Assembly (NCBI GenBank): GCA_903875605.1
Contig: CAIQWT010000085.1
Location: 1 to 64,000, forward strand
Direction of reading: 5' to 3'
DNA length: 64,000 nt
DNA from: an uncultured Geobacteraceae bacterium
GTDB lineage: Bacteria > Desulfobacterota > Desulfuromonadia > Geobacterales > Pseudopelobacteraceae
A model generated the notes under the pieces. The model had not been told where the DNA came from. It saw only the letters and a list, made by a program, of their open reading frames with translations, and ran no database searches. Each line of letters starts with the position of its first letter. Position 1 is the stretch's first letter. Position numbers and translations under genes: made by a program. This document shows, one piece after another, positions 21,284 to 33,342 of the stretch.

Positions 21284-22369
21284 ATGAAGCTTTTTACCTC
21301 AATGCAACTCGGTGCCAGCGAGTTGAAAAACCGTGTCGCAATGGCACCAATGACCCGCAACAGAGCAATAGGCAACGTTCCCAACGAATTGATGGCTCTG
21401 TATTACGGGCAGCGGTCCGATGCCGGATTAATTATTACCGAAGGTACGTCCCCATCTCCAAACGGCCTTGGCTACCCGCGCATCCCTGGCATCCATTCAC
21501 AGGAACAGACTGACGGGTGGAAACTTATTACCAATGCAGTACATGACCGCGGAGGCAAAGTTTTCATACAGCTGATGCATTGCGGACGAGTGGGCAACCT
21601 TCTCAATCTGCCACCTGGGGCTGAACTGATGGCTCCCTCTGCCGTCGCCATGAGTGGCAATATCTGGACCGACAGCAAGGGAGAACAACTTTACGACACC
21701 CCGCGAGAGATGACACGTGACGACATCTGCAACACCGTTGGTGAATATACCAAGGCGGCACTTAACGCTATTGATGCTGGTTTTGACGGTGTTGAGATCC
21801 ATGGCGCCAATGGTTACCTTATTACACAATTTCTTGATCCTAGCTCCAACTTGAGGAAAGATGATTATGGAGGAGCAGCCGCAGAGAGAAACAGCTTTGC
21901 CCTTGATGTCGCACATTCAATAGTAGCCGCTATAGGTGCTGAGCGGGTTGGCATACGCCTTTCCCCCTTCGGAGTTTTTAACGATATGAGTGGAGCTTAT
22001 GAGGGCATTGCGGACCAATACGCCGCACTGGCAGCAGGATTAGGTAAACTCAAACTCGCCTATATTCACCTGGTAGACCACTCAGCGATGGGAGCACCAA
22101 AACCGGATAAATCAGCAGTGGATCTTATCTGTAGCGAATTTAGAGCATCTGGTGGTGGTGCCGTCATCCTTTCCGGTGGATATGATAAGGAACGCGCCGT
22201 GTCTGACCTTGAAAACGGTGCTGCAGACCTGATAGCATACGGTCGGCCATTTATAGCCAACCCGGATCTGGTAGAGCGTTTGAGAATCAATGCCATGCAG
22301 AACGTTGCAAATCAGGAGACATTTTATTCACCGGGAGAAGTTGGATACACTGATTATCCAGCCTTGTAG
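21284..22369 (+). CDS. Old-yellow-enzyme-type alkene reductase (NADH:flavin oxidoreductase)
   Basis: FMN enzyme of the OYE/NemA family that reduces activated C=C bonds, nitroesters or quinone-like electrophiles with NAD(P)H. The 361-residue product is a TIM barrel: RVAMAPMTRNRA binds FMN near residue 22, GLIITEGTSPSPNGLGYPRIP, FIQLMHCGRVG, the substrate His-x-x-Asn pair in EIHGANGYLITQF, DDYGGAAAERNSF, and YGRPFIANPDLVERL at the FMN phosphate site. AAGGAG precedes the ATG. Probably a stress or detoxification gene; the upstream hairpin may be regulatory. Confidence 0.94.
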   Translation: MKLFTSMQLGASELKNRVAMAPMTRNRAIGNVPNELMALYYGQRSDAGLIITEGTSPSPNGLGYPRIPGIHSQEQTDGWKLITNAVHDRGGKVFIQLMHCGRVGNLLNLPPGAELMAPSAVAMSGNIWTDSKGEQLYDTPREMTRDDICNTVGEYTKAALNAIDAGFDGVEIHGANGYLITQFLDPSSNLRKDDYGGAAAERNSFALDVAHSIVAAIGAERVGIRLSPFGVFNDMSGAYEGIADQYAALAAGLGKLKLAYIHLVDHSAMGAPKPDKSAVDLICSEFRASGGGAVILSGGYDKERAVSDLENGAADLIAYGRPFIANPDLVERLRINAMQNVANQETFYSPGEVGYTDYPAL

Positions 22370-22388: not shown

Positions 22389-23018
22389 TCAGATTTCCAG
22401 ATTCATCTCGAGTTGTAACAGACGACTCTCTTTTCGTGTGAAAGGTATTGAAACCGGGGCAAGTGATGTTAGTTGCACACTAAAGGATGCAAGGAATGAT
22501 CGACTGGTGCGGAGTTCTTCTACAAGAGATGCCAGCAGTATCATCTCTGCCATAAGCGGTGCATCTGCTTCACTTAGTGTCACAGGCTCGACTAATGAAT
22601 CCTGGACGGATGCCAGTAAAAAAGAGGGGAATCTTACTGTCATGTTTCTTCCAAGTTTGATCGCCTGCTGTAGAGGGAGTGAAAAGGCCGGTATGAATAG
22701 ATGTGGGGGCGCAGATGACATATCTGATACTTTTACAGAACCGCAGATTTTCATAAATCCGGCAGTATCATTTATGATTCCCTCCAAACAGGTAATGGAG
22801 AATGTTGCATGCCAAAAGGGAAGGTGGATGTCGCCGCTTCCTGAAAATCTGATCATCTCCTTTGACAGAAGCTTGCCTCCCGAACATTCCCAGACGCCCC
22901 CGCAAACGTGGCACTGATACAAAACCTGTTTTTTACCGGCAGCCATCCTCCCGGTACATTGTCCGCAAACCAGTGGTACGAATCTGAAATCGGCTTCAGC
23001 CACGCTGTACCCCCGCAT
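22389..23018 (-). CDS. Zinc-ribbon protein of unknown function, third of a cassette
   Basis: A 209-residue protein with an N-terminal zinc ribbon, CGQCTGRM at about 18-25 followed by CHVCGGVWEC at about 36-45, then IHLPFWHATFSITCLEG (about 64-80) and FIPAFSLPLQQAIKLGRN (about 107-124). It lacks the membrane helices of the two genes before it and ends in a helical Leu/Ser-rich tail. The PFW and P-x-F segments align with those in its two neighbours, so it is likely a diverged paralogue. The start overlaps the previous gene by 23 bases. No named family recognised with certainty. Confidence 0.72.
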   Translation of the reverse strand: MRGYSVAEADFRFVPLVCGQCTGRMAAGKKQVLYQCHVCGGVWECSGGKLLSKEMIRFSGSGDIHLPFWHATFSITCLEGIINDTAGFMKICGSVKVSDMSSAPPHLFIPAFSLPLQQAIKLGRNMTVRFPSFLLASVQDSLVEPVTLSEADAPLMAEMILLASLVEELRTSRSFLASFSVQLTSLAPVSIPFTRKESRLLQLEMNLEI

Positions 23019-23964
23019 TCCGTTCTGAAGTTCCAGCGAGTTGTGTAATAATTGTCGAAATATCCAGCGATCCTGTGCGCCACTTCAGCACGAATGCTGC
23101 AAAAATCGTTGCCGCCAGTCCGGCAAGTGGCATTGTCGTCCACCCAAGAACAACCAGAGCGATCAATACCAACGGTAGCAACTTTTTTGTTTGCTCTTCG
23201 CCCGGAAAGCGGCATTTGACGACATCTCCGTTAACAGCATCAACTATTACGGGATAAACGCGTGCCCCCCTCGTAAAGAACAGACGCCATACAGGATAAT
23301 AAGTCATAGCCGCCCATTCTGATGAAATGCGGACGCGTGATTCCTGACGGACAGTCCCGTTTGCATTCCCGCCCTGTGCAAAAGCAAGCGCCTCCCTGCG
23401 TGCCTGGGCGACTCCTTTAAGCGGATCCACTATGGTTCCCCTGGTTGCCGTCTCCGGATAATCCAAAACTTCACACTTCAATACTGCCGTGGCAAGTCCA
23501 ACCCGCATCGGACCAAAGGCGGTATAATCTCCAGCCGAAGAGCTGAAATCAACAACTCTGGCAACCAGAGAGAAACTGCGCTCATTAAGCCCTTTAATCG
23601 TACGTGTATAGCGAGCGCCATGTTCGTCGTAATCAGCCTCTTCCCTGAACACTTCTTTCTCACACCACCTCCAACCCATCGCCATACCGCAGATCCGCCA
23701 GAAAGGGAGAAACAGTAACTCGCCGCCTTGGAAGCCGAAGGGGGCGGCAGATGCCCGACCATTCTCTCCAACTGCAAGTAGTTTCCTTACCGCAGTGCGC
23801 GCGGAGTTAAGATCGATCCGTTCCCGCACTAATAGCCGGGACACACCGATATCGCCGGAAATCACAGATGTAACTCCGCAAAACCCGCACACGGCCCCGC
23901 GATCGCCTTCGGCACACTCGAATGGCCCGCCGCACTGAGGACAGGTAAAAACTATCGTTGCCAT
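22996..23964 (-). CDS. Zinc-ribbon membrane protein of unknown function, second of a cassette
   Basis: A 322-residue protein. N-terminal zinc ribbon CPQCGGPF near residue 8 and CGFCG near 26; then LLFLPFWRICGMAMG near 84-98, a cytoplasmic domain with ADYDEHGARYTRTIKG, YYPVWRLFFTRGARVYPVIVD near 220-240 (a segment of the kind P-x-W-x3-F...Y-x-V-x-V-D seen in zinc-ribbon proteins of the TFIIB-ribbon type), and hydrophobic C-terminal spans near 262-296 (about two helices). Overlaps the upstream gene by 13 bases and the downstream one by 23. GGAGGGTGG precedes the ATG. Function unknown. Confidence 0.75.
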   Translation of the reverse strand: MATIVFTCPQCGGPFECAEGDRGAVCGFCGVTSVISGDIGVSRLLVRERIDLNSARTAVRKLLAVGENGRASAAPFGFQGGELLFLPFWRICGMAMGWRWCEKEVFREEADYDEHGARYTRTIKGLNERSFSLVARVVDFSSSAGDYTAFGPMRVGLATAVLKCEVLDYPETATRGTIVDPLKGVAQARREALAFAQGGNANGTVRQESRVRISSEWAAMTYYPVWRLFFTRGARVYPVIVDAVNGDVVKCRFPGEEQTKKLLPLVLIALVVLGWTTMPLAGLAATIFAAFVLKWRTGSLDISTIITQLAGTSERNAGVQRG

Positions 23965-24746
23965 CCACCCTCCACTTCCTCCTCCTGAACCCGACCACTG
24001 GATCGCTCAAACAACCAGGCGCTGCTCAGGACTATAGCAATCAGTCCGCTTCTCCAATAAAAGTTCACAGACAGTGTCCCGACAAGAAGTAGTAGTATGA
24101 GATAAACAGCCATAAACTGGATGCGCGAAGCTGGAATCTGAATAGTGGTCTCCTCCGGGATATTCATTAAACTAACCTGCCAACTGCATCCGGAAACTGT
24201 TGCCTGGCACTGCTGTCCGGATAGTTCAAAACTGATCAGGTAAAGTGGCAACTGCAGCAACCTTAAGCGTGACAGAGCAACGTCTCCTGATACAATTGTT
24301 TGCGGTGCGTTATCAGCTTTAGGGAAATGAATATCTGTCGGGATAAACTCGAGGTCACCTGGTGGCGGTACCGATGGAATGGGGTACGCTTCCAGAGTGG
24401 TCCCGGCGGCAACAAAGCAAGTGCTGCCATCGGCAAAATCGGCATACCAGAAAGGGTGGTATCCAAAAACGAGAGAGATCGGACGTACGGGAATTGAAGC
24501 GGCATTAGAATCCAACTGTACAAGCAAAACGCCCCAGGCACGTGCATCATTATTCTCGTGTCGAAAGTACTGTTCAGAAACGCTCTGGCCAACAACCACT
24601 CGAAACAGGGTACCGCACTGTCGACAGGTATGAAAATTCGTTTCGGTTCGTAGTTCAGCTCTGAATCCGCACTGAGGGCATTTAGTTGTATTCAACCCCA
24701 GCTCCTTATCAAAAAAGGGGAATCCTTTCGGAATCCCCTTCTTCAT
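23952..24746 (-). CDS. Zinc-ribbon membrane protein of unknown function, first of a cassette
   Basis: A 264-residue protein whose N-terminal zinc ribbon is CPQCGFRAEL at about 23-32 and CRQCG at about 41-45. A GYHPFWYADF segment (about 95-104) and LQLPLYLISFE (about 168-178) parallel the PFW and P-Y-x3-F motifs of the next two genes. Two C-terminal membrane helices (about 208-247) and an acidic tail (VQEEEVEGG) follow. Two starts are possible: ATG at 24746, with GGTGGAG five bases upstream, or TTG at 24695, with AAGGAG six bases upstream; the first puts a terminator-like hairpin inside the coding sequence. First gene of three overlapping genes. Confidence 0.75.
   Translation of the reverse strand: MKKGIPKGFPFFDKELGLNTTKCPQCGFRAELRTETNFHTCRQCGTLFRVVVGQSVSEQYFRHENNDARAWGVLLVQLDSNAASIPVRPISLVFGYHPFWYADFADGSTCFVAAGTTLEAYPIPSVPPPGDLEFIPTDIHFPKADNAPQTIVSGDVALSRLRLLQLPLYLISFELSGQQCQATVSGCSWQVSLMNIPEETTIQIPASRIQFMAVYLILLLLVGTLSVNFYWRSGLIAIVLSSAWLFERSSGRVQEEEVEGGWQR
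24711..24742 (-). terminator. Terminator-like hairpin at the start of the zinc-ribbon cassette
   Basis: On the minus strand GGGGATTCC-GAAA-GGATTCCCC forms a 9-bp stem with one T-T mismatch and a GNRA loop, followed directly by TTTTTT. It meets the criteria of an intrinsic terminator and ends only a few bases before the AAGGAG site of the TTG start. It may end the upstream aroF transcript, act as an attenuator of the cassette, or be chance within the coding sequence. Confidence 0.6.
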
Positions 24747-24987: not shown

Positions 24988-26001
24988 TCAGCAACTCTGT
25001 AAAAATAACGTTAACCTATCGATATCGCTCATCATTATTTCAAATCCATGAAAAGTTAATGACTGAGGCCCGTCGGAAAGTGCTTTTTCCGGTTCCGGAT
25101 GAACTTCAACCAGCACTCCATCAGCTCCGGCAACAAGCGCCGCCTTTGCCATCGGCGACACCAGAGAGCGTTTGCCGGTTGCATGGGACGGATCTACCAT
25201 GATAGGCAGATGAGACAGTTCCTTTATAAGCGGCACAATGGAGAGATCAAGAGTGTTGCGGGTAGCCGTCTCAAATGTGCGAATACCGCGTTCGCAGAGA
25301 ATTACCTGGCTATTTCCTTCCGCAAGAATATATTCGGCCGCAGCAAGAAACTCTTCCACCGTGGCACTCATGCCCCTTTTTAATAGTACCGGTTTGCGAA
25401 TTTTACCTAATTCACGCAGCAGGTCGAAGTTTTGCATATTACGGGCACCAACCTGTAGCAAATCGGCATACTCAGCAACCAGGCCGACATTATCCGGGCT
25501 CATCACTTCAGTCACTATCGGCAGTCCGCTCTCTTTTCCGGCGATTGCCAGCAACCTTAAACCCTCTTCGCGTAAACCCTGAAATGTATGCGGACCGGTA
25601 CGCGGCTTGAAAGCGCCGCCACGTAGCATATCAGCGCCGCATTTCTTCACAAAAAGGGCTGTTTTGACAATCTGCTCCTCGCTTTCAACGGCGCAAGGAC
25701 CACCGACAACAACAGGACGGCAGCCTTGACCTACTTTAACACCGGCAACATCTACGATAGTATCTTCAGGGTGAAAATCGCGTGACACCAGCTTGTAGGG
25801 CTTTGAAACATGGATAACCCGCTGCACACCAGGCAGTTCCAGTATGTTGCTATCATCTACATACCCGTGATTACCCAACACGCCTATAGCGGTTCGTTCG
25901 CTACCGGGAATAGGTTCGGCCCTGAAACCCATTTCCTGTACAATTCTGCCGATTGAATCTACGTCTGCCTGAGTGGCGTTGTGGTTCATAACAATCAACA
26001 T
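24988..26001 (-). CDS. aroF: 3-deoxy-7-phosphoheptulonate (DAHP) synthase
   Basis: First step of the shikimate pathway: phosphoenolpyruvate plus erythrose 4-phosphate to DAHP. The 337-residue product belongs to the AroA type I-beta group with an N-terminal ferredoxin-like regulatory domain (about 1-70, MLIVMNHNATQADVDSIGRI), then the barrel with VVGGPCAVES (metal Cys), MLRGGAFKPRTGPHTFQG, and LPIMVDPSHATGKR. The frame is open to 26079 but ATG at 26001 with GGAG eight bases upstream fits the usual family length. It lies 99 bases downstream of the metal-binding lipoprotein gene. Feedback inhibition by Tyr or Phe is possible but cannot be read. Confidence 0.95.
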   Translation of the reverse strand: MLIVMNHNATQADVDSIGRIVQEMGFRAEPIPGSERTAIGVLGNHGYVDDSNILELPGVQRVIHVSKPYKLVSRDFHPEDTIVDVAGVKVGQGCRPVVVGGPCAVESEEQIVKTALFVKKCGADMLRGGAFKPRTGPHTFQGLREEGLRLLAIAGKESGLPIVTEVMSPDNVGLVAEYADLLQVGARNMQNFDLLRELGKIRKPVLLKRGMSATVEEFLAAAEYILAEGNSQVILCERGIRTFETATRNTLDLSIVPLIKELSHLPIMVDPSHATGKRSLVSPMAKAALVAGADGVLVEVHPEPEKALSDGPQSLTFHGFEIMMSDIDRLTLFLQSC

Positions 26002-26100
26002 GATGTTTTCTCCAATATTACAAATTTTGTGCTGGAAGTTTTTACAGAGTTGCATCCATTTTGAAAAAGCGGTACCCAATTAATCATCTAAAGAGGCAAC

Positions 26101-27051
26101 CTACCTGCATTGCAATCCAGTTTTGAGGTTTTTAAGATTCTCTCTCATCAAGTTAACAAAGGAGGTGCCGCCAGCAAGATCATCTTTACTGATGTTGTGC
26201 GCGCCGTGAAGCGTGAGAATTTTAACTCCTGTTTCACGGGCAAGCATCTCAGAGATCCTTGGCGACACCAATTCTTCACTGTAAACGTACTCTATTCCGC
26301 TCGTTTTTACGAGTTTCAGCAGTTGGGCAATAGTTGCAGGGGTAGGCTCTGCATCAGGGTTCACCGCCTGAGCAGAGCGATAGGTCAACCCGTAACGGGC
26401 TGCCAGATAGCCGAAGGCATAGTGACCACCGTGAAGAAAGGTGTTTTTAATGCAACCGGTAAGCCCCAATATGAAATCATTATCCAGTTTTTGCAGATCT
26501 TCCTTATACTTTTGCGCATTGGCCAAATAAAATTCTTTATTAGCCTGATCCTTGCTAATTACCCCGTTTGTCACATTGTCAACCATAATCCGGGCATTGC
26601 TAAAGTCAAGCCAGAGATGTGGATCCATAGCACCAACATGATCATGCCCCTTTTCTTCATGGGAATCAGCGACACCAGCCTTACGAAGAGCAGCCCCCTC
26701 ACTGGCATCAACAATTCGAAGTGCTGGCGAAGCGACTCCCTTAAGAAGCGTCGTCGCCCACGGTTCCATTACTGCATTAGTATAGATGAATATGTCCGCC
26801 TTGCTGATGGCAATTAAATCAGCTGGCTTGGGTTCATAACTGTGTGCTTCAACACCTGGCGGAAGCAGCAGCTTAATTTCGGCCTTGTCACCGCAGATAA
26901 TCCGGGCAAAATCGTACAGTGGAAACAGCGTAGTGACTATGGATATTTTCTTTTTGGATTCTTTGTTGACGCCTGGTGACTCGTTTTTTTGGCATCCGGC
27001 TAAAAGAAACAGTACCATTAGGAAAACAATAATTGGCACTTTTTGCTTCAT
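26101..27051 (-). CDS. Metal ABC transporter substrate-binding lipoprotein (ZnuA-type)
   Basis: Periplasmic zinc/manganese-binding lipoprotein of the cluster A-I family. The 316-residue product from ATG 27051 has a lipobox LLAGC near residue 18, a metal-site core with VEAHSYEPKP, His-rich loop DSHEEKGHDHVGAMDPHLWLD, GGHYAFGYLAARYGL, YSEELVSP and TLHGAHN, with the three His and one Asp/Glu ligands of ZnuA. The longer TTG at 27066 has no site; GGAG at nine bases supports 27051. No permease or ATPase genes are in the window, so it is an orphan binding protein, probably working with a transporter elsewhere. The His-rich loop argues for zinc. Confidence 0.9.
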   Translation of the reverse strand: MKQKVPIIVFLMVLFLLAGCQKNESPGVNKESKKKISIVTTLFPLYDFARIICGDKAEIKLLLPPGVEAHSYEPKPADLIAISKADIFIYTNAVMEPWATTLLKGVASPALRIVDASEGAALRKAGVADSHEEKGHDHVGAMDPHLWLDFSNARIMVDNVTNGVISKDQANKEFYLANAQKYKEDLQKLDNDFILGLTGCIKNTFLHGGHYAFGYLAARYGLTYRSAQAVNPDAEPTPATIAQLLKLVKTSGIEYVYSEELVSPRISEMLARETGVKILTLHGAHNISKDDLAGGTSFVNLMRENLKNLKTGLQCR

Positions 27052-27206
27052 AACTATAGTCTCCAAAATTCAGTACATGATGTGATATGAAGCTTAATAT
27101 ATGGAGCAGTTATCTTCTGAGAGTGCCGCTGAAAATGCATTGGAAGGGGCTTTGCAAGTAGTTGTACGGGTAATCGAGACAATCAGCACCCCTGGACACA
27201 GGACTG

Positions 27207-31210: not shown

Positions 31211-32164
31211 GTGAAAATTATTTCCACAACCAAACTGTTTACGGCGACACTCTGTGTTGCAGCGCTTGTCGGCTGCCAGGGGGGATCTACTTCCGGCGGA
31301 GCAAAAACCGAAGGCAAAAAAGAAGGAAAGGTTCTGGCTGAAGTTAATAGCGGCAGCATTACCACTGGTGATTTTGACCGTGAATTAAAAAATCTGCCAG
31401 AATACCTGAAAGCAATGGCAGACACCCCGCAAGGGCGTAAAGAGATGCTAGACACGATGGTTATTCGGGAACTTATCCTCCAACAGGCGGGCAAAGACGG
31501 CCTTGACAAAGGTGCTGAGATTGAGGAGAAGCTTCAGGACCTTAAGAAACGCTTGATAGTTGAATCTTTTCTCAAGAAAAAGGTTGAGGTTGAGTCCAAA
31601 GTTTCTGATGAAGACATGAAGAAGTTTTATGAGCAGAACAAAGACAAGTTCAAGTCCGGCGAACAGATCAAAGCCAGCCACATTCTCGTTAAAACCGAGA
31701 AAGAGGCCAAAGACGTTCAGGCACAGCTGAAAGCCGGTGGAAATTTTGAGGAGGTCGCAAAGAAAAGTTCTGTTGACTCTTCCTCCGCAAAAGGTGGAGA
31801 TTTAGGCTGGTTCGGCAAAGGCAGTATGGTTCCCGCTTTTGAAAAAGCGGCCCTGGTTCTTAAAGAAGGGCAGATTTCCGATGTGGTCAAATCTGATTTC
31901 GGCTTCCATATCATTAAGCTGACCGGAAAACGCCCTGCCGGTGTACGCCCTTTTGAAGAGGTAAAGGAGCAGATCAAGGGCGCAATCATGCCGACCAAGC
32001 AACAGGAGGTTTTCCAGAAAATCAAGGACGAGCTGAAAAAGACCGCCAAGATTACCATCAAGGAAGATGTCTTGAATAACGTTAGTGTAAAGAAGGAAGA
32101 TCCAAAAACTGATGATAAAAAAGCTGTTGAAGCACCTAAACCGGCAGCTCCCGAAAAGAAATAA
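31211..32164 (+). CDS. Periplasmic parvulin-type peptidyl-prolyl isomerase lipoprotein (PrsA/SurA-like)
   Basis: Folding factor for exported proteins. The 317-residue product starts GTG at 31211 with AAAGGAG upstream, and has a lipobox LVGCQ near residue 20, an N-terminal helical chaperone region, a parvulin domain (about 150-245, ASHILVKTEKEAKDVQAQLKAGG, DSSSAKGGDLGWFGKGSMVPAFEKAA, FGFHIIKL), and a Lys/Pro/Ala-rich tail. The PrsA-like architecture with one PPIase domain is clear. A second, similar gene follows after a terminator. Confidence 0.92.
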   Translation: MKIISTTKLFTATLCVAALVGCQGGSTSGGAKTEGKKEGKVLAEVNSGSITTGDFDRELKNLPEYLKAMADTPQGRKEMLDTMVIRELILQQAGKDGLDKGAEIEEKLQDLKKRLIVESFLKKKVEVESKVSDEDMKKFYEQNKDKFKSGEQIKASHILVKTEKEAKDVQAQLKAGGNFEEVAKKSSVDSSSAKGGDLGWFGKGSMVPAFEKAALVLKEGQISDVVKSDFGFHIIKLTGKRPAGVRPFEEVKEQIKGAIMPTKQQEVFQKIKDELKKTAKITIKEDVLNNVSVKKEDPKTDDKKAVEAPKPAAPEKK

Positions 32165-32268: not shown

Positions 32269-33342
32269 ATGAAGCAACATACTTTTGCAATTATTACAAC
32301 CGCAATGGCTCTGCTAGTTATGGGTGGGTGTGCAGGTAATGATGCAGTTGTCGCCAAGGATCCGGCAGCAGCTACATTAAATACCGATCAAACCGGCAAA
32401 TCCTCTGACGGGGCTAAAAAGCCGAAAACGATAACAAACGCTATCGTAGCAATAGTAAATGACGACATAATAACCCTTTATGATGTCAACAAAGAAGCCC
32501 AGACGGCAGTTAGCGAAGCAGCAAAAAAAGCAGCTTTGGACGATGCGGCCAGGATCAACATCCGCCGTACAGCTCTTGATCGCCTGATCGAAAAAAAGTT
32601 GACAGAGCAAAAAATCAAGGAATTAAGTATTCGTGTTTCCGAAGAGGAGATTCGTCAGGCAATCGATGACGTGAGAAAACAAAACAACATCCCTTCTCAA
32701 GATGCTTTAGTAGCTGCTCTTGCCGGTCAGGGGCTTTCATTTGACCAATATCGCAGCCAACTTCAGGAACAGATAGAAAAGCTGAAACTGGTGAGTATGG
32801 AAGTTCGAGCCAAGGTACAAGTCGGCGAGACCGAAATGCGTGACTATTATACCGCTAATCTGCCTAAATACACCGAAGAGGAAAGTTTCCGTGCTCGGCA
32901 CATCTTCTTTAAAACCGGCGTAAAAGCAACGCCAAATGAGATTCAGAGCTCCAAAACAACTGCCATGGCTGTTCTGGCCGATGCCAGAGGAGGCAAAGAT
33001 TTTGCCGAACTGGCAAAAAAGTTTTCAGAAGATCCGGCGGCTCGTAAAGATGGTGGTGACCTTGGAAGTTTCAAAAAAGGGGACATGCAACCTGATCTGG
33101 AGAAAACCATCATCTCCCTGAAACCAGGAGAGATCAGCGATCTGGTGTCGACTCCCATAGGCTTTCATATTATTAAGCTTGAGACAAGAGTAGCCGGTAC
33201 AACAAAGACCTTTGAAAGCTTAAAATCGGATATTGAAGAAATACTTTATCGCAAAAAATCGGAAGAGCGCTTCACCCAATGGGCGAAGGATCTGCGTGGA
33301 AAAGCCAGTGTTGAAATCAGAGTATTGGAAGGCTTTCTGTAG
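32269..33342 (+). CDS. SurA-like parvulin peptidyl-prolyl isomerase lipoprotein
   Basis: Second exported folding factor. The 357-residue product has a lipobox MGGCAG near residue 20, a SurA_N domain with TITNAIVAIVNDDIITLYD near residue 55 (the usual SurA start), a helical chaperone segment, and a parvulin domain (about 205-305) with ARHIFFKTGVKATPNEIQSS, FSEDPAARKDGGDLGSFKKGDM and IGFHIIKLETR. The layout is SurA-like with one PPIase domain and a lipid anchor. It lies 104 bases after the first parvulin gene and is probably a tandem relative with a similar role in outer-membrane protein delivery. Confidence 0.93.
   Translation: MKQHTFAIITTAMALLVMGGCAGNDAVVAKDPAAATLNTDQTGKSSDGAKKPKTITNAIVAIVNDDIITLYDVNKEAQTAVSEAAKKAALDDAARINIRRTALDRLIEKKLTEQKIKELSIRVSEEEIRQAIDDVRKQNNIPSQDALVAALAGQGLSFDQYRSQLQEQIEKLKLVSMEVRAKVQVGETEMRDYYTANLPKYTEEESFRARHIFFKTGVKATPNEIQSSKTTAMAVLADARGGKDFAELAKKFSEDPAARKDGGDLGSFKKGDMQPDLEKTIISLKPGEISDLVSTPIGFHIIKLETRVAGTTKTFESLKSDIEEILYRKKSEERFTQWAKDLRGKASVEIRVLEGFL

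Follow-up and report, generated by a model that had tools for sequence, protein, structure and literature searches.

In Bacillus subtilis, the pspA-ydjGHI operon encodes YdjG, a zinc-ribbon protein associated with SPFH proteins (PMC11237479, PMC8581546), which is described as having two zinc ribbons, a YpeB-related domain and a membrane segment, with band-7 and TPM proteins as its partners (PMC11237479). Membrane attachment of YdjI-type SPFH proteins, as described for Bacillus, involves PspA and a pair of membrane proteins; when either ydjG or ydjH is deleted, the membrane foci of both the SPFH protein YdjI and PspA are reported to be lost, and YdjH is reported to interact with YdjG, YdjI and PspA in two-hybrid assays (PMC8581546). 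Here, we describe a cassette of three genes, A (P0001), B (P0002), and C (P0003), located in a 64,000-nucleotide stretch of DNA from an uncultured Geobacteraceae bacterium (contig CAIQWT010000085.1; hereafter, the window, its genome being G000). Computed comparisons relate B to YdjG-like proteins, support paralogy of A and B, reveal a fused B-C form, associate the cassette with SPFH genes in a setting without PspA, and show that, in the genomes searched, the cassette and a second SPFH-adjacent zinc-ribbon protein (P231) exclude each other; of these results, we regard the exclusivity as the most useful. In the parts of the literature covered by our search, we found no description of the A-B-C set or of its exclusivity with P231.

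Relation of the Cassette to YdjG-Like Proteins

A previous reading of the window, made by a model from the sequence alone (the sequence-only reading), had proposed three overlapping minus-strand genes, each starting with a CxxC...CxxC zinc ribbon; the three open reading frames, their overlaps of 13 and 23 bases, and one ribbon per protein were all recovered here. Gene B (22996-23964, minus strand, as for all cassette features; 322 amino acids) encodes a zinc ribbon (CPQCG...CGFCG, residues 8-29, 23878-23943), a Pro-Phe-Trp (PFW) segment (LPFWRICG, 23686-23709) that aligns to a P[FY]W segment of YdjG-like proteins, a YpeB/PepSY-like segment (YYPVWRLFF...YPVIVDAVNG, residues 187-250, 23215-23406) recognized from a weak Pfam match and from alignment to the LPVW...VNGQTG segment of YdjG-like proteins, and a C-terminal hydrophobic, probably membrane, region that hydropathy places at about residues 260-296 (23077-23187). 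Gene A (23952-24746; 264 amino acids) encodes a zinc ribbon (CPQCG...CRQCG, residues 23-45, 24612-24680) whose four cysteines are invariant in a six-sequence alignment, a PFW domain (segment HPFWYADF, 24435-24458, aligned to the LPFW of B), a compact LPLYL...VSG segment with a second stretch conserved in the alignment (LPLYLISFE, 24225-24251), and likewise a C-terminal hydrophobic, probably membrane, region. Gene C (22389-23018; 209 amino acids) encodes a zinc ribbon (residues 18-39, 22902-22967) and a PFW domain (segment LPFWHATF, 22800-22823) without a C-terminal hydrophobic segment, and its product matches the C-half of the fused proteins described below.

No Pfam or NCBIfam model scored above its cut-off with A, B, or C, and neither PHROGs nor PADLOC gave a match better than E 0.01. 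Sequence searches of PDB with the cassette proteins returned essentially zinc ribbons plus weak matches at E above 0.4; matches to Cas12f and IBR were set aside as zinc-ribbon similarity. The lead to a family came from gene context, an SPFH gene lying directly before the cassette or the fused gene in several genomes. When B was compared by hhalign with six plasmid-encoded YdjG-like proteins, the two aligned over 237 columns (Prob 98.7, E 3.8e-16), across the zinc ribbon, the PFW segment, and the YpeB-like segment; with alignments built by the tool, ribbons included, E was 2.5e-17. After removal of the ribbons, B alone still scored 68.4 (E 4e-9), and B together with the N-halves of the fused proteins scored 69.0 (E 2.6e-9), whereas the highest of 100 column-permuted controls reached 20.4 and the reversed control 16.7. 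Outside the ribbon, the similarity of A to these proteins was weaker (39.8; control maximum 21.6) and that of C marginal (27.1; control maximum 19.7). A PepSY match was present in three of 23 B-type members, and weak (best E 0.012); the window B matched YpeB/PepSY at E 0.05 and 14.4 bits, below the cut-off of 24, and PepSY was not among the best 25 of 78 families listed for the six YdjG-like proteins.

These comparisons show that B is a divergent relative of the YdjG-like, SPFH-associated zinc-ribbon proteins. The sequence-only reading, which saw no known function and could not name the family, is not supported for B, which profile comparison and gene context place with the YdjG-like proteins of the pspA-ydjGHI type. 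Both have a C-terminal hydrophobic segment, and the family is encoded next to SPFH genes; however, the cassette comprises three genes instead of one, its proteins carry one ribbon instead of two, and no PspA was found in the window genome. The cassette is best described as a set of SPFH partners of the YdjG-like type that are divergent, split, and multiplied and that occur without PspA.

Conservation and Kinship of A, B, and C

Four further genomes of the genus (G013, G027, G005, and G001) carry orthologues of A, B, and C that keep the gene order and adjoin or overlap one another; beyond the genus, orthologues in this order were found in G041 (same family), G064 (same order), and G147, G182, G210, and G110 (one other family of the same phylum), giving 11 loci with complete A-B-C sets. 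The ratio of nonsynonymous to synonymous substitution rates (dN/dS; NG86, two pairs per gene) ranged from 0.16 to 0.21 in the closer comparison and from 0.13 to 0.18 in the more distant one, where dS exceeded 1; because of these orthologues and ratios, A, B, and C are real, constrained genes and not chance open reading frames. The three always occurred as a set, being together in all 11 loci with a stand-alone B. A C-terminal hydrophobic segment was detected by hydropathy in 11/11 A orthologues, 10/11 B orthologues (at the threshold used), and 6/6 YdjG-like proteins, and in 0/11 C orthologues, two of which show a weak internal one, in agreement with the earlier claim that two of the three proteins carry C-terminal membrane helices. 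The GC fraction of the cassette (0.506) is close to that of its flanks (0.498 and 0.505). A promoter and terminator scan yielded four promoter-like sites (shuffled sequences 2.2, standard deviation 1.5) and six terminator-like sites (shuffled sequences 2.8, standard deviation 1.6).

Profile comparisons by hhalign used 11 members each of A, B, and C, with the halves of the fused proteins added to B and C. A aligned with B over 226 columns (E 1.5e-21), and B with C over 183 columns when the fused halves were included (E 6.5e-11), and the PFW segments that had been proposed as a shared feature align in both comparisons; without the fused halves, B and C aligned in the ribbon alone (E 8e-7, 35 columns). 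With the zinc ribbons cut off and 100 column-permuted alignments as controls, the scores were 75.7 for A and B (control maximum 16.0), 42.3 for B and C with the fused halves (control maximum 18.7), and 25.5 over 13 columns for A and C (control maximum 22.3). On account of these ribbon-free scores, A and B are clear full-length paralogues and C is a more distant relative of B, the latter with moderate support, while the relation of A to C outside the ribbon, barely above the controls, is not convincing alone. The triplication with specialization put forward earlier thus holds as a related trio, clear for A and B, moderate for B and C, and barely above the controls for A and C outside the ribbon. 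The second shared segment proposed in the same reading was partly misplaced: IPAFSLPL of C is not the counterpart of YPVWRLFF of B and aligns with an earlier part of B, the true counterpart in C being a later SIPF segment (about residues 190-200).

A single protein of about 465-515 amino acids (an open frame of 559 in G476) combines B and C at 12 other loci: its N-half matches the B profile and its C-half that of C; in G450, the match to C is confined to the ribbon. None of these 12 proteins showed a hydrophobic segment at the threshold used. The underlying search with B covered 395 genomes, of which 81 matched, many by the zinc ribbon alone; besides G000 and G005, 21 matched genomes were taken as real (19 at E<=1e-8, G154 at 1.1e-8, and G354 at 1.6e-5), and the loci of 15 of them were analysed, leaving out G188, G292, G153, G268, G138, and G154. 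A scan of genome contigs with P0002 gave a single match (L019, Bacteroides; 25% identity), which was dropped because the open reading frame around it lacks a zinc ribbon at its start and no A, B, or C profile matched it. Plasmid searches by tblastn with B and with a fused protein gave no match, nor did a search of viral contigs.

Association with SPFH Genes and Absence of PspA

An SPFH gene lies directly before the cassette in five of the 11 loci (G064, G110, G147, G182, and G210; Band_7_1 E 9.9e-62 to 8.4e-67) and directly before the fused B-C gene in nine of 12, i.e., in 14 of 23 loci in total, and a full-length SPFH (Band_7_1) gene is present in all 23 genomes with the cassette or the fused form. 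The YdjI-type SPFH/Band_7_1 scaffold is not part of the cassette itself. In the window, the cassette has no SPFH gene next to it, so its partner there is one that we infer: the SPFH gene of the window genome is on another contig (G000:C50:71309-71941), with no zinc-ribbon gene recognized beside it, and belongs to a different subtype with a GYF_2 tail, as opposed to the zinc-ribbon tail seen in three scanned SPFH proteins whose genes adjoin a cassette or a fused gene. The idea that a PPPG loop of A is a ligand of this GYF_2 tail was dropped because the loop is limited to three of the 11 A proteins and P231 genomes have GYF_2 tails as well.

The YdjG-like proteins show the same association. With the Vibrio YdjG-like member as query, 12 plasmid records were retrieved, including three from Vibrio and five from Paracoccus, and SPFH adjoins in 12/12; one member is annotated as a "TFIIB-type zinc ribbon-containing protein", and in Enterococcus a TPM-domain gene follows. 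Each of the six YdjG-like proteins used for comparison has two zinc ribbons, the first being degenerate in the Tsukamurella protein. Among six of 20 plasmid SPFH records examined for neighbours, three have as the next gene one whose product carries a pair of zinc ribbons, a segment of P[FY]W type that is degenerate in Tsukamurella, an LPVW...VNGQTG C-terminal segment, and a hydrophobic C-terminus. SPFH genes also occur in clusters with DUF4178, DUF350, and polyamine aminopropyltransferase genes (L095:4019-8768, by annotation, and L090, by eye), another kind of association for this scaffold family, and among phage records SPFH was found in one unannotated faecal record.

A search of 58 genomes of the order for PspA (PF04012) at E 0.001 gave no match, as compared to 9/14 control genomes with one; among the 23 genomes with the cassette or the fused form, three matched at this E (G229, G173, and G055), one of which (G229) passes the cut-off. 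A further gene, X, of about 170-190 amino acids and helical by eye (e.g., L079:3616-4155, L078:4186-4752, and L082:9690-10193), was found in 13 of the 23 genomes and adjoins SPFH in all 13; three of these genomes have their zinc-ribbon gene elsewhere, X still being beside SPFH. Two X proteins weakly resemble NCBIfam LIMLP_15305 (E 2.7e-13 and 6.7e-13, about 50 bits as compared to a cut-off of 210), and a sequence search of PDB with X gave no match. X, which was not found in the window genome or in the other seven cassette or fused genomes of the order, is a possible stand-in for PspA.

Mutual Exclusivity of the Cassette and P231

In 23 genomes of the order that lack the cassette, a neighbour of the SPFH gene encodes a different zinc-ribbon protein, P231. 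Like the cassette proteins, it is a small zinc-ribbon protein with SPFH as a gene neighbour, but it gave no match to the A, B, or C profile at E 1e-5, and its Pfam matches (one protein scanned) are zinc ribbons alone (Zn_ribbon_TFIIB, PF13453, E 1.5e-18). It was surveyed by genome-wide profile searches in 75 genomes (a base set of 58, G041 and G055, and 15 outside the order), in which absence of the cassette rests on a single-sequence search, except for 20 profile-searched genomes and those of the 395-genome search. Among genomes bearing SPFH, 23 have the cassette or the fused form without P231, 28 have P231 without the cassette, and two have neither; of the remainder, two have P231 without a scored full-length SPFH gene, and 20 have none of the three. 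Not one of the 75 genomes combined P231 with the cassette or the fused form, and the cassette was found in 0/22 genomes scored as lacking full-length SPFH. The two SPFH genomes with neither partner are G080, where the SPFH gene is close to the edge of a contig of 4 kb, and G032, which has a divergent SPFH type; the two with P231 but no scored full-length SPFH (G020:C726:2814-3452 and G034:C1:2747-3430) are fragmented assemblies, from which SPFH may be missing for that reason.

Within the genus, five genomes have the cassette, 17 have P231, one has SPFH with neither, two have P231 without a scored full-length SPFH gene, 12 have none, and none has both; given five and 17, the uncorrected probability of such exclusivity is 3.8e-5, a figure that ignores shared ancestry. 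Four genomes carry the window-type SPFH subtype (subtype i) without the cassette, as judged by profile search (G002, G011, G021, and G024), and all four have P231 elsewhere in the genome, while the six genomes with subtype-i SPFH and the cassette all lack P231.

Proposed Mechanism and Alternative Explanations

We consider it likely that A, B, and C form a heteromeric zinc-ribbon complex and that this complex acts, without PspA, as membrane anchor or adaptor of an SPFH scaffold, much as YdjG and YdjH do with YdjI. A membrane-bound complex displaying its ribbons, as the sequence-only reading had imagined, is plausible given the C-terminal hydrophobic segments of A and B. The C-terminal helices of these two proteins would anchor the complex in the membrane, leaving their zinc ribbons and PFW/YpeB-like domains in the cytosol, where A and B would bind C as a soluble third subunit, and the three together would recruit or organize the SPFH scaffold. 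In the window lineage, the cassette would act in trans on the SPFH protein encoded elsewhere and would take the place of P231, the partner used by sister species. Because the fused proteins lack a hydrophobic segment, anchoring by cassette-type proteins does not seem universal in the wider family; in these genomes, the task may fall to the SPFH protein or to X. SPFH binding, the membrane topology, and a role in envelope stress or membrane organization are what we infer from these data. The stronger proposition, that a three-subunit PspA-free platform displaced an unrelated, non-orthologous zinc-ribbon partner and that the SPFH proteins of the order need one adaptor, either of the two, stands in our estimate at an even balance. 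The cassette suggests a PspA-free SPFH/zinc-ribbon module across the whole order, with an interchangeable adaptor, and points to a family that lacks a Pfam or NCBIfam model above cut-off here.

Several observations weigh against an SPFH adaptor related to YdjG. SPFH does not adjoin the cassette in the window and five other loci (6/11), and the SPFH type in genomes with a non-adjacent gene differs from the cassette-adjacent type elsewhere; A, B, and C carry one zinc ribbon each and YdjG two; the YdjG-like set was picked by context and architecture and does not include the B. subtilis YdjG sequence itself; the AlphaFold single-sequence model of B alone was unusable (mean predicted local distance difference test score, pLDDT, 38.5); and the other plasmid SPFH neighbours were DUF4178/polyamine-type clusters (2/6) and, in Butyrivibrio, two hypothetical genes (1/6). 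In addition, 17 of the 75 genomes in the P231 survey (the 15 outside the order, G041, and G055) were included because they matched, and the presence/absence counts are uncorrected for shared ancestry. The non-adjacent SPFH genes would suit a cassette that acts alone, sensing zinc or redox state at the membrane and having nothing to do with SPFH in this lineage, where the SPFH link would be a relic of an ancestral operon, and so would a presumably zinc-transporter-like lipoprotein gene next to aroF in the window, which is not present in L011, L012, or L013; however, full-length SPFH is kept in every genome with the cassette or the fused form, and the cassette was found neither in any of the 22 genomes scored as lacking full-length SPFH nor with P231, which makes such a sensor quite improbable.

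A nucleic-acid-binding or transcription set, in which membrane-tethered TFIIB-like ribbons regulate genes under envelope stress, would account for the weak TFIIB-, L37Ae-, and RpoP-type zinc-ribbon matches of the cassette proteins, and the TF_Zn_Ribbon of YdjG is stated to be DNA-binding (PMC9239133). We regard this as very unlikely, as the TFIIB-type matches of A, B, and C cover the ribbon alone and fall below curated cut-offs, no other DNA-binding domain was reported for them, and the conserved partner is a membrane scaffold, of which the three cassette- or fusion-adjacent members scanned bear zinc ribbons themselves, which fits protein-protein contacts. The exclusivity with P231 might also be phylogenetic alone, one clade having inherited the cassette and the other P231 without functional replacement. 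The uncorrected counts leave room for this, and the SPFH proteins that G041 and the genus members with a cassette encode fall, with those of four P231 genomes, into one subtype (94/92 support, below the star of the tool); these four cassette-less genomes nevertheless all have P231 elsewhere, and the six cassette genomes of the same subtype do not. In a tree of aroF, a gene beside the cassette, the cassette genomes do not form one clade (four changes), although support is moderate, no starred branch forces this, and a single gene was used; G000 groups with a P231 genome at 86/91, and G013 and G027 lie among P231 genomes. A purely phylogenetic origin therefore seems doubtful to us, though it deserves serious attention, and an SPFH adaptor remains the explanation we prefer.

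Flanking Genes

The cassette is flanked by two genes that are not part of it and whose putative names come from the sequence-only reading: aroF (24988-26079, minus strand, probable start 26004), a conserved neighbour of the cassette in the genus, and an old yellow enzyme gene (21284-22369, plus strand). We compared the aroF neighbourhood in 15 cassette-less genomes; in six, the gene next to aroF is one that flanks a cassette elsewhere, with no cassette between. These are four relatives in which an old-yellow-enzyme-like gene adjoins aroF, as in the window (G006, G023, G031, and G025), G016, with the neighbour that flanks the cassette in G013 and G027, and G012, with that of G001 and G005; the other nine genomes have other aroF neighbours. 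Because three flank types occur both filled and empty, the simplest reading of the pattern is that the cassette has long stood next to aroF and was lost repeatedly.

The lipoprotein gene mentioned above (26101-27066), which we take to resemble genes for zinc-transporter substrate-binding lipoproteins, lies between aroF and a CRP-like regulator gene in the window. Two further lipoprotein-like genes (31211-32164 and 32269-33342) neighbour each other, are about 30% identical to each other's homologues, and are kept as a pair in L011 and L012.

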